NCBI GenBank assembly: GCA_030584085.1
Contig: CP129490.1
Span: forward strand, 1,955,511-2,019,510
Source of the DNA: Melioribacteraceae bacterium
GTDB taxonomy: Bacteria; Bacteroidota; Ignavibacteria; Ignavibacteriales; Melioribacteraceae
DNA length: 64,000 nt
Direction: 5' to 3'
A program made the position numbers and the translations under genes. Every line of letters begins with the position of its first letter. Position 1 is the first letter of the stretch. Below, piece by piece: positions 41,402 through 45,618 of the stretch. Below the pieces are notes generated by a model. The model had not been told where the DNA came from and did no database searches. It saw only the letters and a program-made list of their open reading frames with translations.

Positions 41402-41526
41402 GAGATTTAGCACAGCAATAAACCATAAACAATGTCCATAAATAAAAAGTTTGAAAGAGAAAATTGCCTACAAGGTTTTATTGGAGTCGGACACTCCTTT
41501 GATTTTCCTTGCGGGCTTTTTTCGTT
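41402..41526 (+). ncRNA. Candidate element-encoded small RNA, about 125 nt
   Basis: Lies between a near-consensus promoter and an intrinsic terminator. The 3' part has an imperfect 10-bp stem GCCTACAAGG / CCTTGCGGGC (one mismatch) enclosing the hairpin GGAGT CGGAC ACTCC, then TTTTTT. It has no open frame of useful length. It could be a regulatory or immunity RNA of the element. The shared TCGGAC in a hairpin also occurs in the structured leader at 35097, but the resemblance is short. Confidence 0.5.
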
Positions 41527-41577
41527 TTAAAGCTCTTTGAATTAGTGATTTCATCAGATTAACCTTAGTGTCAAAAA

Positions 41578-41609
41578 TTGATGACAAAATTGATGACAAA
41601 TTGATGACA
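41578..41609 (+). promoter_or_regulatory. Putative integrase arm-type sites, right end
   Basis: Three exact copies of TTGATGACA at 41578, 41590 and 41601 (spacing 12 and 11 bases), about 110 bases inside the right attachment repeat. One exact and one near copy lie at the left end, so both arms of the element carry the word. Confidence 0.65.
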
Positions 41610-41718
41610 CTTTTTAATCAAATTAGCATTAAGGTTTAATAAGTCATTTTTCTGGTGAGTTGGTTAGATAACTGTCCGACTAACAAAAAGTTTCGTTTTC
41701 TACACATAAACGGATATT

Positions 41719-41746
41719 AAAAAACCCGTGCTCGGTAACACGGGTT
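41719..41746 (-). terminator. tRNA-Phe terminator
   Basis: 8-bp stem AACCCGTG / CACGGGTT, followed in the tRNA direction by a short U-run (A-run at 41719-41724). It is contained in both 98-bp repeats, so the element carries its own copy of the terminator. Confidence 0.8.
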
Positions 41747-41816
41747 GCATTCTTTGTGGGCAGAGACGGAATCGAACCGCCGACACAAGGATTTTCAGTC
41801 CTTTGCTCTACCGACT
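41719..41816. repeat. Right 98-bp attachment repeat (attR), part of intact tRNA-Phe
   Basis: Identical to 31813-31910. It covers the tRNA-Phe terminator and the 3' 60 bases of the intact tRNA gene. The identity stops at 41816, 13 bases inside the tRNA 5' end, and the tRNA continues normally to 41829. Confidence 0.93.
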
Positions 41817-41829
41817 GAGCTATCTGCCC
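41757..41829 (-). tRNA. tRNA-Phe (anticodon GAA)
   Basis: 73-base cloverleaf with acceptor GGGCAGA/TCTGCCC, D-arm GCTC..GAGC, anticodon loop CTGAAAA (GAA) closed by AAGGA/TCCTT, and T-arm GGCGG TTCGATT CCGTC. The discriminator is A, and the CCA end is not encoded. It is the integration target of the adjacent element. The gene is intact because the element carries a matching 3' end. Confidence 0.97.
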
Positions 41830-41885
41830 TCAAAAAACGAATTCAAAAATAGATGTTTTCTGAATCATTTCCAAAAGGAAATTTA

Positions 41886-42887
41886 TTAATCACCCAACGT
41901 TGCAACCATGACTGCTTTAATGGTATGTAATCTATTTTCAGCTTCATCAAAAACAATTGAATGTTCGGATTCGAAAACATCGTCTGTAACTTCCATTGCT
42001 TCTAAGCCGAACTTTTGGAATATATCTTCGCCAACAGTTGTTTCTCTATTGTGAAAAGCCGGTAAACAATGAAGGAATTTTACATTCGGATTTTTGGTAT
42101 TCTTAATCATTTCCATATTGACTTGATATGGTTTCATAAGTTTAATTCTTTTTTCCCATTCTTCTTCCGGCTCACCCATTGATACCCAAACATCTGTATA
42201 TAAGAAATCAGCGCCTTCAACTCCTTTAACCGGATCATCTGTTAGAGTAATTTTAGCTCCGGTTTCTTTGGCAATTTCTTCGCATGTTTTAACGAGTTCT
42301 TCATTCGGCCATAAATTTTTGGGAGCTACGGCTCTAAACTTCATACCCATTTTTGCACATCCAACCATTAATGAATTACCCATGTTGTTTCTAGCATCGC
42401 CAAGATATGCTAATGTTACTTGATTTAATGGTTTATCCGAATGTTCCATAATTGTTAGGAAGTCGGCAAGAACTTGTGTCGGATGAAACTCGTTAGTTAA
42501 ACCATTCCAAACCGGAACTCCGGCGTGAGCGCCAAGTTCTTCAACTATTTCTTGTCCGAATCCACGATATTCAATGCCGTCATACATTCTACCTAAAACA
42601 CGCGCAGTATCTTTCATCGATTCCTTTTTACCCATTTGCGAACCAGCAGGACCTAAATATGTTACGCCGGCACCTTGATCCATTGCGGCAACTTCAAAGG
42701 CGCAACGTGTTCTTGTCGAATCTTTTGCAAAAAGTAGAACTACGTTTTTGCCTTTTAGTCTTTGTCTTTCTGTACCGGCATATTTTGCCGTTTTTAGATC
42801 TTTAGAAAGATCAAGTAAAAATTTTATTTCCTGTGGAGTGAAATCCAACAGTTTTAGAAAGTTTCTGTTTCTTAAATTAAATGCCAT
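41886..42887 (-). CDS. argF: Ornithine carbamoyltransferase
   Basis: A 333-residue enzyme interconverting ornithine plus carbamoyl phosphate with citrulline. It has the carbamoyl-phosphate motif STRTRC (in [13 protein letters not shown]), the ornithine-loop segments [12 protein letters not shown] and DVWVSMGE, and the active-site FLHCLPAFH. The length is typical of the E. coli-like long form. An AGAGGA lies 8-13 bases upstream of the ATG. Together with carbamate kinase upstream it could work in citrulline breakdown (making ATP) or in arginine synthesis; the direction cannot be read here. The operon is interrupted by the four-helix-bundle gene. Confidence 0.96.
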
Positions 42888-42921
42888 GTTTTCCTCTTAG
42901 TTAAAAGTATATAAAATTCTT

Positions 42922-42957
42922 AAAGTTTGTAAAGTTTATAGAATTTAAAAAGTTTAC
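42922..42957. repeat. 9-bp periodic repeat on the left of the IVS-type gene
   Basis: Four 9-base units of the form AAAGTTTAT (AAAGTTTGT, AAAGTTTAT, AGAATTTAA, AAAGTTTAC), with degenerate units continuing to about 42978. The 15 bases TAAAGTTTGTAAAGT at 42921-42935 occur in inverted orientation at 43343-43357. Confidence 0.8.
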
Positions 42958-42970
42958 ACGTTTGAAAAAT

Positions 42971-43315
42971 CTATAAAGTTTTTATTAGTCCGGATAACAT
43001 TTTGGAGATTTCTTCCGATAGATTATAGATTTTTAGTTCTGTCTCTTTATTTACATAACGTAATTCAGATGCAATTACAATCATCGATCTAATCTCTGCT
43101 GAACTTCCTTTTGCAATAAATAAAAAGTGTTTGAATTCTTTGTTACTACTTCTTTCAAATCCTTCTGCAATATTGTTCATTACCGAAATTGAAGCTCTCT
43201 GAATCTGATCTCGAAACGAATAATCTCTGCAATCAGAAAAAGTAGTGTAAATTAGAGGCGACAATTCTTTAGCTTTCTGCCAGGCAAGTATTTCTTCAAA
43301 TCTAGTAAATTTCAA
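42971..43315 (-). CDS. Four-helix-bundle protein (23S rRNA intervening-sequence type)
   Basis: A 114-residue helical protein with the S23/IVS family hallmarks: FEEILAWQKAKELSPLIY at the start, DQIQRASISVMNNIAEGFERSS in the middle (the NIAEG motif) and EFKHFLFIAKGSSAEIRSM. Members were first found in intervening sequences of 23S rRNA genes and also occur free in chromosomes. Biochemical function is unknown; pentameric bundles have been seen. The start is TTG (43315) with GGAAGT upstream. It is inserted exactly between arcC and argF and bounded by inverted 9-bp-periodic repeats, suggesting mobility. Confidence 0.92.
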   Translation of the reverse strand: MKFTRFEEILAWQKAKELSPLIYTTFSDCRDYSFRDQIQRASISVMNNIAEGFERSSNKEFKHFLFIAKGSSAEIRSMIVIASELRYVNKETELKIYNLSEEISKMLSGLIKTL

Positions 43316-43320
43316 AACAC

Positions 43321-43357
43321 TTCCAACTTTATGAACTTTTTGACTTTACAAACTTTA
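43321..43357. repeat. 9-bp periodic inverted repeat on the right of the IVS-type gene
   Basis: Minus-strand units GTAAAGTTTGTAAAGTC and AAAAAGTTCATAAAGTTGG mirror the left flank. The 15-base core at 43343-43357 is the exact inverse of 42921-42935 and overlaps the arcC stop codon. Confidence 0.8.
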
Positions 43358-44302
43358 CGTACTCTGATTTATTCTTGTTCCACAATTATCAAGATGAATT
43401 TCTTCTACGGATGTGATAACAGCTTCTTTACCCCCACCTTGAACAAAATTAACCGCAGCTAGAACTTTCGGGCCCATACTTCCGGCTGCGAATTCACCAG
43501 CTTCAAAATACTTCATGATCTCGGGAACTGTAATTTGGTCTAGTTGTTTCTGTCCAGGTTTATTGAAATTAACATATACCTTGGGAACATCCGTGATAAT
43601 ATAAAATGCATCAGCACCGATTTCATTTGCCAAAAGTGCAGAAGCTAAATCTTTATCGATTACAGCTTCGATAGCTTCAAGATGTTTATCTTTATGCCTG
43701 AAAACCGGAATACCGCCACCACCGGCTGCAATAACGATGTTACCTTTTTTTGCTAAATATTTTACGATTTTTTTGTTTAAAACATCAATTGGCTTTGGTG
43801 AAGCTACAACTCTTCTCCATCCTCTTTTTCTCGGATCTTCTTTGAATTGCCAATCATTAGCTTTTGCTAAAAGATCAGCTTCTTCTTTGATATAATATGG
43901 ACCAATCGGTTTAGTAGGATTTTGGAATGCAGGATCTTCCCTATCAACTAAAACTTGTGTTATTAGAGAAACAACATTCTTCTTCATCTTTTCTTCATTC
44001 AGAACATTCAACATCATTCGTTCAATCATGTAACCGATTCCACCTTGAGAATCGGCTACACAAATATCGAGCGGCATCTTAGCAATTTTGTATTTTTCAT
44101 AACCGGCTTCATTTCTCAAAAGAATATTTCCTACTTGCGGACCGTTTCCATGAGTAATGATAAGGTTAAAATCTTGCTTTAATAATCCAATTATTTTTTT
44201 ACAAGTATCGTATGTATTTTTTTCTTGCTGCTCAATAGTACCAATTTCATTGCCGCGGAGTAATGCGTTACCACCGAAAGCGACAACTGCTAACTTTTTC
44301 AT
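43355..44302 (-). CDS. arcC: Carbamate kinase
   Basis: A 315-residue amino-acid-kinase-fold enzyme that converts carbamoyl phosphate plus ADP to ATP, CO2 and ammonia. It shows AFGGNALL at the N-terminus, ITHGNGPQVGNILLRNE, IAAGGGGIPVF and the C-terminal GSMGPKVLAAVNFV. The length is normal. Its start overlaps the cPGS-like gene by four bases (ATGA), so translation is coupled. Downstream lies argF, separated only by the IVS-type insertion. This pairing normally signals citrulline- or carbamoyl-phosphate-based ATP production. Confidence 0.96.
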   Translation of the reverse strand: MKKLAVVAFGGNALLRGNEIGTIEQQEKNTYDTCKKIIGLLKQDFNLIITHGNGPQVGNILLRNEAGYEKYKIAKMPLDICVADSQGGIGYMIERMMLNVLNEEKMKKNVVSLITQVLVDREDPAFQNPTKPIGPYYIKEEADLLAKANDWQFKEDPRKRGWRRVVASPKPIDVLNKKIVKYLAKKGNIVIAAGGGGIPVFRHKDKHLEAIEAVIDKDLASALLANEIGADAFYIITDVPKVYVNFNKPGQKQLDQITVPEIMKYFEAGEFAAGSMGPKVLAAVNFVQGGGKEAVITSVEEIHLDNCGTRINQST

Positions 44303-45618
44303 AAGATTCCTTTTTCTATCAATACTTTTTCAACCGTATTCTGTCCGATCTCTTGAAGTTCATATTTTACTCTAGTCGAAGGTTTGTTGATTTTCAAGAT
44401 TCTTCCTAAATCAATCGGTGTTCCGATTACGACGGAATCACATTCGACTTTATTTATAGTTTCTTCAAGATCTTTCATTTGCTGCTCACCATAACCCATA
44501 GCAGGTAATAAAACTCCAATTTCCGGATATTTTTCATAAGTCTCTGTGATTGATTTTACTGTATAAGGTCTTGGGTCAATAATTTCAGCGGCACCTAATT
44601 TTTCGGCAGCAACAGTACCTGCACCATATTGCATTTCTCCGTGAGTTAATGTCGGTCCATCTTCAACTACTAATACCTTTTTATCACGAATATATTCCGG
44701 ATGGTCAACAAACAATGGAGAGGCAGCTTCAATTACTGTAGCTTTTGGATTAACTTGTTTGATGTTTTCCATAACTTCTAAGATATCTTGACCATCGGCA
44801 GTTTCTACTTTGTTGATAACAACGGCATCAGCCATTCTTAATGAAGTATTGCCGGGATAATAGTACAACTCGTGTCCAGGTCTGTGAGGATCGGCAACTG
44901 TAAATGTAACATCTGCATGATAGAATGAAGTATCATTATTTCCGCCATCCCAAAGAATAACATCAGCTTCTTTTTCAGCTTCACGTAAAATCGCTTCATA
45001 ATCAACACCGGCGTAAATAATTCCACCTAGAGCGATATGTGGTTCGTACTCTTCGATTTCTTCAATCGTACATTCATGTTTTTTAAGATCTTCTAGAGTT
45101 GCAAATCTTTGTACTTTTTGTTTTACTAAATCACCGTAAGGCATTGGGTGACGAATTGCTACTACTTTCTTACCTGCTGCTCTTAACAATTCGACAATTT
45201 TTCTTGAAGTCTGAGATTTTCCACATCCGGTTCTAACAGCAAGAACCGAAACAACCGGTTTTGTGCTTTTCACCATTGTCTCAGCTGCGCCCATCAATCT
45301 GAAAGAAACTCCGGCAGCATTTACGATAGAAGCTTTTGTCATAACATAATCAAAAGGAACATCGGAATATGAGAATACAACTTCATGAACATCGAATTTC
45401 TTAATTAAATCAACAAGTTCACTTTCTGCATAAATTTTAATTCCATTTGGATAAAGTTTCCCAGCTAATTCTGCTGGGTACTTACGATCATCAATATTAG
45501 GAATTTGAGTAGCTGTAAATGCTACAACGTTATAGTCTTCATTATCTCTGAAATAGACATTGAAGTTGTGGAAGTCACGACCGGCAGCTCCCATAATAAG
45601 TACATTCTTCTTAGACAT
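44299..45618 (-). CDS. Cyclic 2,3-diphosphoglycerate synthetase-like P-loop protein
   Basis: A 439-residue protein with an N-terminal Rossmann-like region (VLIMGAAGRDFHNFN) and a P-loop NTPase domain: Walker A RTGCGKSQTS at about 129-138, the nucleotide-specificity segment VVINKVETAD and the C-terminal VIGTPIDLGRILKINKP. It matches the family annotated as cyclic 2,3-diphosphoglycerate synthetase, studied in thermophilic methanogens. Bacterial homologues are common in FCB genomes, but their product has not been established as cDPG. It is the first gene of the cPGS-arcC-argF unit, so a link to carbamoyl phosphate or arginine metabolism is likely. AAGGAG lies just upstream of the ATG. Confidence 0.82.
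   Translation of the reverse strand: MSKKNVLIMGAAGRDFHNFNVYFRDNEDYNVVAFTATQIPNIDDRKYPAELAGKLYPNGIKIYAESELVDLIKKFDVHEVVFSYSDVPFDYVMTKASIVNAAGVSFRLMGAAETMVKSTKPVVSVLAVRTGCGKSQTSRKIVELLRAAGKKVVAIRHPMPYGDLVKQKVQRFATLEDLKKHECTIEEIEEYEPHIALGGIIYAGVDYEAILREAEKEADVILWDGGNNDTSFYHADVTFTVADPHRPGHELYYYPGNTSLRMADAVVINKVETADGQDILEVMENIKQVNPKATVIEAASPLFVDHPEYIRDKKVLVVEDGPTLTHGEMQYGAGTVAAEKLGAAEIIDPRPYTVKSITETYEKYPEIGVLLPAMGYGEQQMKDLEETINKVECDSVVIGTPIDLGRILKINKPSTRVKYELQEIGQNTVEKVLIEKGIL

Follow-up and report, generated by a model that had tools for sequence, protein, structure and literature searches.

A four-helix-bundle gene between arcC and argF as a probable copy of a small mobile unit with lineage-specific terminal arrays

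The window, the whole 64,000-nucleotide stretch of a Melioribacteraceae genome analysed here, carries a gene of the IVS family between arcC and argF, and this gene is enclosed by inverted arrays of short repeats. What kind of genetic unit is this, and how did it come to lie between two host genes? The IVS gene (42971..43315, minus strand) starts with TTG and encodes a 114-aa four helix bundle protein of PF05635 / TIGR02436; its open reading frame scored 110 bits against PF05635 (cut-off 33.8) and 105 bits against TIGR02436. The upstream host gene is arcC (amino acid kinase family PF00696, 43355..44302) and the downstream one argF (ornithine carbamoyltransferase family PF00185/PF02729, 41886..42887), and all three genes lie on one common strand, the minus strand. 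Upstream of the IVS gene, the arm is an array of AAAGT-type units (43325..43357, minus strand). Because arcC ends at 43355, the arcC stop codon lies inside this array. The downstream arm is an inverted array (42904..42981, minus strand) that includes the final bases of the IVS gene and stops just short of the argF ribosome-binding region, beginning a few bases past the presumed ribosome-binding bases. An exact 15-bp inverted core is present once in each array (42921..42935 on the left, 43343..43357 on the right). The two copies are 100% complementary, and they are the sole exact inverted 15-mer pair at 200-600 bp spacing in the 64-kb window. The coordinates of the original prediction thus held for the gene within its arrays, for the core overlapping the arcC stop, and for the left repeat finishing just before the argF ribosome-binding site.

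Both arrays were periodic. TRF reported period 9 at 42904-42981 (8.8 copies, 62% matches) and at 43325-43357 (3.8 copies, 76% matches), and 9 was the best period in each flank of the unit, with 0 of 100 dinucleotide shuffles reaching the same. The repeats are not perfect 9-mers; they consist of a 5-nt core followed by a variable spacer. The arm pair scored 30, a value as high in 1 of 100 shuffles, and when the upstream flank of the window unit was matched with the downstream flanks of 109 units its own partner ranked 4. Only the four-helix protein is encoded between the arms, with no transposase or recombinase gene in the unit. No rRNA match was found in 41500-44400 of the window, and the window IVS gene is not in a ribosomal RNA gene; no rRNA match was found either at 20 other IVS loci, picked mostly near contig ends. 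The genome itself is a single 3.74-Mb contig in which PF05635 matched 10 times; two adjacent matches look like parts of an interrupted gene, and another falls below the cut-off.

We compared 30 arcC loci, the window's own included, of which 23 had an argF match on the locus and 7 had none. A close argF (82% or more) was present at 13 of the 23. At 4 of these 13 the IVS gene was there as well: the window, L030, L038 (in G026, a genome of the same family as the window genome) and L034, where it is interrupted by stops. At L025 we found an AAAGT array at the arcC-argF junction without an IVS gene, and at L027 a short palindrome of the AAAGT word. The other 7 had no gene, array or palindrome, and they include both same-genus genomes, where arcC and argF are 10 and 11 bp apart. 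The idea that the two genes normally adjoin is therefore true of these two relatives, both of which supplied the uninterrupted junction that had been proposed as a check, and the gene does not occupy this site in all relatives. A clade of the three intact copies was not rejected (AU p 0.57), so we do not claim independent insertions at this junction; the insertion may be an old, single one with repeated loss. At ten further loci (L014, L016, L021, L022, L024, L029, L032, L033, L036 and L037) a distant argF homologue with 39-43% identity lies downstream of arcC, pointing to gene replacement at the locus, and none of these ten gave an IVS hit.

We then asked how general such arms are among IVS genes. 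The arm test measured inverted complementarity between the 200 nt upstream and the 200 nt downstream of full-length IVS genes against dinucleotide shuffles. For the window genome and its relatives, where 80 regional loci were the best-scoring PF05635 matches among relatives, 133 ORF hits in 121 loci yielded 117 full-length genes and, after short flanks, duplicates and ambiguous bases were dropped, a set of 109 units. A scan across phyla used the best 80 of 562 confirmed stretches, which gave 79 loci, 74 with enough flank; the two sets share three loci (L172 = L038, L202 = L030, L224 = L119). From plasmids, 14 of 20 matched records were analysed, with four Riemerella records, H7 and H10 left out. 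The test was passed at p≤0.01 by 71 of the 109 units of the window genome and relatives (best-scoring matches), by 66 of the 74 across phyla (best 80 of 562 stretches), mostly with AAAGT repeats, and by 10 of the 14 plasmid genes, leaving 38, 8 and 4 failures, respectively. Among ordinary window genes used as a control, 2 of 46 reached p≤0.01. Own arm pairs of the 109 set had a median score of 28 compared to 17 for swapped pairs, and scores of at least 30 were found for 46% of own pairs and for 1.1% of swapped ones. Within the window genome, three of the seven units tested passed (L003, L006, L007) and four failed (L001, L002, L005, L008). Similar repeats at other IVS loci of this genome were thus found at some copies and missed at others by this test; by eye, most copies carry a repeat word on both sides, with a different word for each copy.

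The flanks of the 109 set were periodic at p≤0.01 in 120 of 218 cases. Among flanks at p≤0.02, lags 7 (45), 14 (44) and 8 (22) dominated and 9 was rare (4), so that the 9-base periodicity first noticed at the window unit stands there and fails as a rule for the family. Near the IVS gene the upstream flank is poor in C, and left arrays lie close to the IVS start codon (median 18.5 nt). Open frames on both sides were codirectional for 129 of 171 IVS genes with enough sequence in the two large sets, a count for which no control was run. On plasmids, IVS hosts were cyanobacteria, Azospirillum and Gemmatirosa, with words such as TAGGGAG or GGGCAGG. Two cyanobacterial plasmids hold an IVS unit within a CRISPR operon, at the cas6-cas4 junction in Anabaena sp. 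90 (L151) and at the cas10-cmr3 junction in Picosynechococcus PCC 7003 (L320). A tblastn search of phages with the window protein gave no match. The window locus matched no PADLOC-DB model, and a defence role was set aside.

The word of the arrays goes with the protein lineage and not with the genome. The lineage of the window protein, A2, accounted for 79 loci among the best 80 of 562 stretches, labelled Bacteroidota, many Patescibacteria, Thermodesulfobacteriota, Spirochaetota, Omnitrophota, KSB1 and others. AAAGT occurred at least twice in both arms of 59 of 74 close homologues (best 80 of 562) vs 2 of 104 other IVS units. Successive AAAGT cores were spaced by 7 (118), 8 (40) or 9 (157) nt, i.e. 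a 5-nt core plus a 2-4 nt spacer, and 76 of 97 AAAGT arrays of three or more units mixed these spacings. Four units per arm was the commonest number, and in 26 of the 59 AAAGT cases the first core began no later than where the upstream stop ends. Within the 109 set, 114 pairs of close proteins at different sites shared words at a mean of 19.5 vs 15.6 when permuted (0/5000), and a rank Mantel test of protein vs word likeness gave p 0.022. Sharing a genome added no word likeness (15.42 for distant pairs of one genome vs 15.38 for pairs of different genomes). L111 comes from another family and an unrelated site between an M48-type peptidase gene and a gatC-like gene (read from ORFs); its protein has 71 of 114 residues in common with that of L038, and its arms carry the same kind of word. 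The tree of the AAAGT lineage clustered by phylum (23 changes, 31.7 when shuffled, minimum 18) and had few supported forks. Because of this clustering and poor resolution, the occurrence in many phyla describes how the lineage is distributed and does not demonstrate a series of transfers, and we do not claim cross-phylum transfer from this tree.

Recent movement was seen at a different site. At the sufD-sufS junction of Flavobacteriales, the units of G058 and G070 were identical at 420 of 420 positions, and the flanks matched at 998 of 1191 (83.8%) and 1043 of 1170 (89.1%) positions. In G059 the flanks at this site were 97% and 92% like those of G070, and the unit was 5 bases off both G058 and G070. 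Four substitutions separate the genes of L161 (G058) and L165 (G059), and since three amino acids are changed by them, protein constraint does not explain the identity of the units. The shared block coincided with the unit to within a few tens of bases. Read from these alignments, the unit at sufD-sufS has moved recently between species; an assembly error behind the identical units is possible in principle. At sufD-sufS, an IVS gene is absent from G067. In G059 and G067 there is a second unit, at sufS-sufE, that is 84% and 83% like the sufD-sufS unit; the two sufS-sufE units were identical at 396 of 414 positions with flanks at ~92%. At this junction SufS takes its stop from the left array and SufE its start codon from the right array. 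G058 and G070 have no IVS gene at sufS-sufE, and in G070 what is apparently a decayed right arm still starts SufE. A relative of the unit in G073 (320/408) lies between non-homologous flanks. No target-site duplication was apparent by eye at arcC-argF or sufS-sufE, where the compared sites have diverged. The pair L186/L188 was also considered as a recent transfer and rejected, as its left flank is also about 98% identical.

Some other sites tell of long residence. At the nuo site (genes read from ORFs) the IVS proteins of nine loci form a pure clade, and judging from the sequences this site is old and vertically inherited. Own arms matched there with a mean of 32.6 vs 21.8 when swapped within the site (permutation p 0.0005). 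Another operon has two groups, at adjacent junctions, which gave p 0.003 and 0.001. Five smaller site groups, arcC included, missed p 0.05, so that arms drifting together were detected, at p<0.05, for 3 of the 8 groups. L084 and L118 are two IVS units that occupy consecutive junctions in a single operon. A pure clade of 13 contains their proteins, with copies at both of these junctions in other genera as well, and this pattern suggests that a unit hopped from one junction to its neighbour.

Arrays also occur without a gene. An exact search for three AAAGT cores spaced by 9 gave 26 matches in 10 of 39 relatives, with no excess over the reversed control pattern (43). As the control was the commoner, single pattern matches mean little, and only the clustered examples show gene-less relics. 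Overlapping AAAGT runs stood out in G011, G012 and G022, several of them without an adjoining gene, and L287 is an inverted array pair 48 nt apart. At 30 of 33 array loci examined, overlaps and possible chance hits included, there was no recognised IVS gene within the stretch. The G058 unit had at least 40 matches (40 of 133 candidates scored); those listed, beyond the unit and its own arms, were all short and array-like. At L284, L313 and L317, all gene-less, a G-rich array of one word stands ahead of an inverted array whose word differs, with the left-forward/right-reverse order kept.

The AlphaFold2 model of the window protein (pLDDT 94.3) has four helices. Its closest folds were XCC0516 (2gsc) and BT_0352 (2rld), which were also the only convincing sequence matches. 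Weaker fold matches were Avd (4dwl; TM 0.78, E 0.014) and Avd in a retroelement RNP (8ub7, 8ube). The protein thus models as a four-helix bundle like XCC0516 and kin of retroelement Avd. A passage of PMC4990558 describes XCC0516 as a homopentamer of four-helix bundles. PF00078 reverse transcriptases gave 0 matches in the window genome (G000), none in 30 of 54 IVS-bearing genomes and none in the IVS-richest G017 and G048. With PF00078 often absent and its counts uncorrelated with IVS, a host reverse transcriptase is not required as the mover.

At the level of RNA, the suggestion that the transcript folds back on itself fared less well. A stem was predicted for the window transcript, yet it was no stabler than shuffles (fold z -1.05, 13 of 100 shuffles as good). 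Arm complementarity in the AAAGT lineage depended little on how the units were ordered: shuffling their order lowered the mean from 39.4 to 36.6 (paired test p 7e-5), and only 1 of 55 units reached p≤0.05. A register-matched, tuned arm duplex is for this reason not claimed. A block shuffle breaks words and was not used for arm complementarity.

We believe that the window holds one copy of a small mobile unit, made of a PF05635 gene and two inverted terminal arrays of a lineage-specific word, with a probability of roughly 0.75. A small mobile unit had already been suggested from the insert and its inverted repeats; this gains support from same-genus relatives without the gene, from arms at many other IVS loci, from one protein lineage with the same word at unrelated sites, and from an identical unit in diverged flanks. 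The architecture, the lineage-linked words, the presence and absence at arcC-argF and the recent between-species movement elsewhere are direct observations. The IVS family, a poorly understood one, resembles a mobile element that has no transposase. The arrays would belong to the element, each protein lineage carrying its own word, which for the window lineage is AAAGT then 2-4 variable bases, most commonly in four units per arm. Units would mostly sit between codirectional genes, and because the left array often comes with the upstream stop and the right array gives the downstream start, as at suf, insertion would cost little. Units come and go, and they can decay to gene-less arrays. The protein of the unit probably reads its own end words. 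The fold match suggests a pentameric ring like XCC0516, and this ring may bind the array units, one subunit per unit, in the manner of ring proteins such as TRAP. The paired arms may be cut from the transcript by RNase III, as in ribosomal IVSs. A more tentative extension, to which we give somewhat less than even odds, the pattern search having shown no excess over its control, is that IVS units are recombinase-free mobile elements of many phyla whose ring protein recognises a lineage-specific terminal word, and that the unexplained heptamer arrays known from cyanobacteria, Bacteroidota and proteobacteria represent the ends and remnants of such units.

Part of this evidence could also be read at the RNA level only, with the arms retained to form a stem for excision by RNase III and the units travelling passively by ordinary homologous recombination. 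The predicted stem and the cutting of ribosomal IVSs by RNase III, as related in PMC4990558, are consistent with this. The energy of the stem was not special, the order of units was unimportant (1/55), and the shared sufD-sufS block coincides with the unit itself, and we consider this reading possible but unlikely. Movement in trans by a host Y1 (IS200/REP-type) transposase that recognises hairpins seems more doubtful. IVS and Y1_Tnp counts do correlate over 58 genomes (G000-G057; rho 0.50, and 0.44 after genome size), a correlation that may come from genome plasticity. G006, G007, G008 and G040 bear IVS genes without a Y1 match, and the IVS-richest genome, G017 (31), has one. Half of the Y1-transposase genes (10 of 20) reached p≤0.01 in the arm test, by sight through REP-like palindromes; these loci have single palindromes and no word arrays.

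Two further readings do without a mobile unit, and we regard both as very improbable. An old, immobile IVS gene could be an operon-resident regulator whose arrays are binding sites for control of its own message, as the nearness of left arrays to the start codon and vertical inheritance at the nuo site would allow. Such a regulator would sit poorly with the same-genus relatives that lack the gene, the identical unit in diverged flanks, the one lineage and word at unrelated sites, and arms that are inverted and on both sides. Alternatively, polymerase slippage in intergenic DNA could generate 7-9-mer arrays in which IVS genes merely settle. Gene-less arrays exist, and passages of PMC4679880 and PMC4692102 report heptamer arrays from several phyla; however, the word follows the protein lineage rather than the genome, the arrays are inverted around the gene, and in most AAAGT arrays the core is constant and the distance between cores varies, a pattern that differs from plain slippage.

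The mobile unit that we favour has several known relations. According to passages of PMC4990558, ribosomal IVSs were discovered over 25 years ago and encode a protein without known function; that of Coxiella burnetii has a 28-bp terminal stem and, at its RNase III cut site, two or three tandem GACAGAT 7-mers depending on strain; and its authors recount older suggestions of IVS mobility. The window unit has the PF05635/S23p protein and the terminal complementary arms of a 23S rRNA IVS, and in Coxiella also the tandem 7-mers have a counterpart. It differs in lying between protein genes instead of in rRNA, in having arrays on both sides and in the tie of word to lineage. Homology of PF05635 and Avd was proposed in a passage of PMC10053308, and the fold match above agrees; unlike diversity-generating retroelements, the unit resides in a genome without a PF00078 reverse transcriptase. 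As in MITEs and insertion sequences, its termini are inverted repeats, here as arrays, and with MITEs and REP/RAYT the IVS units share inverted ends and gene-less copies. In contrast to these, their ends are arrays of words and the encoded protein is no transposase; no Y1 transposase was found in the window unit, and Y1 loci look different. The TAACTGA heptamers described in PMC4679880 lie in sets mostly just before start codons, with 14 overlapping the end of the upstream ORF, and the GGGAATC heptamers of Xanthomonas in PMC4692102 include 70 inverted pairs in Xcc. Both resemble IVS arms as largely intergenic 7-mer arrays with some inverted pairs, whereas the passages of the two papers at hand draw no link to an IVS gene, which is a proposal of the present analysis. 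In literature searches whose scope excluded subscription journals and preprints, we found no account of PF05635 genes that lie outside rRNA and form units whose array ends go with the protein lineage. The parts are known, and what appears new is that they occur together, how widely they do so, and the evidence that the units move.

A PF05635 gene that travels outside rRNA with lineage-linked ends gives its protein a testable ligand, and short repeats that had lacked an explanation gain a candidate origin. It also raises the question by what means a unit that lacks a recombinase passes from one species to another and enters gene junctions.
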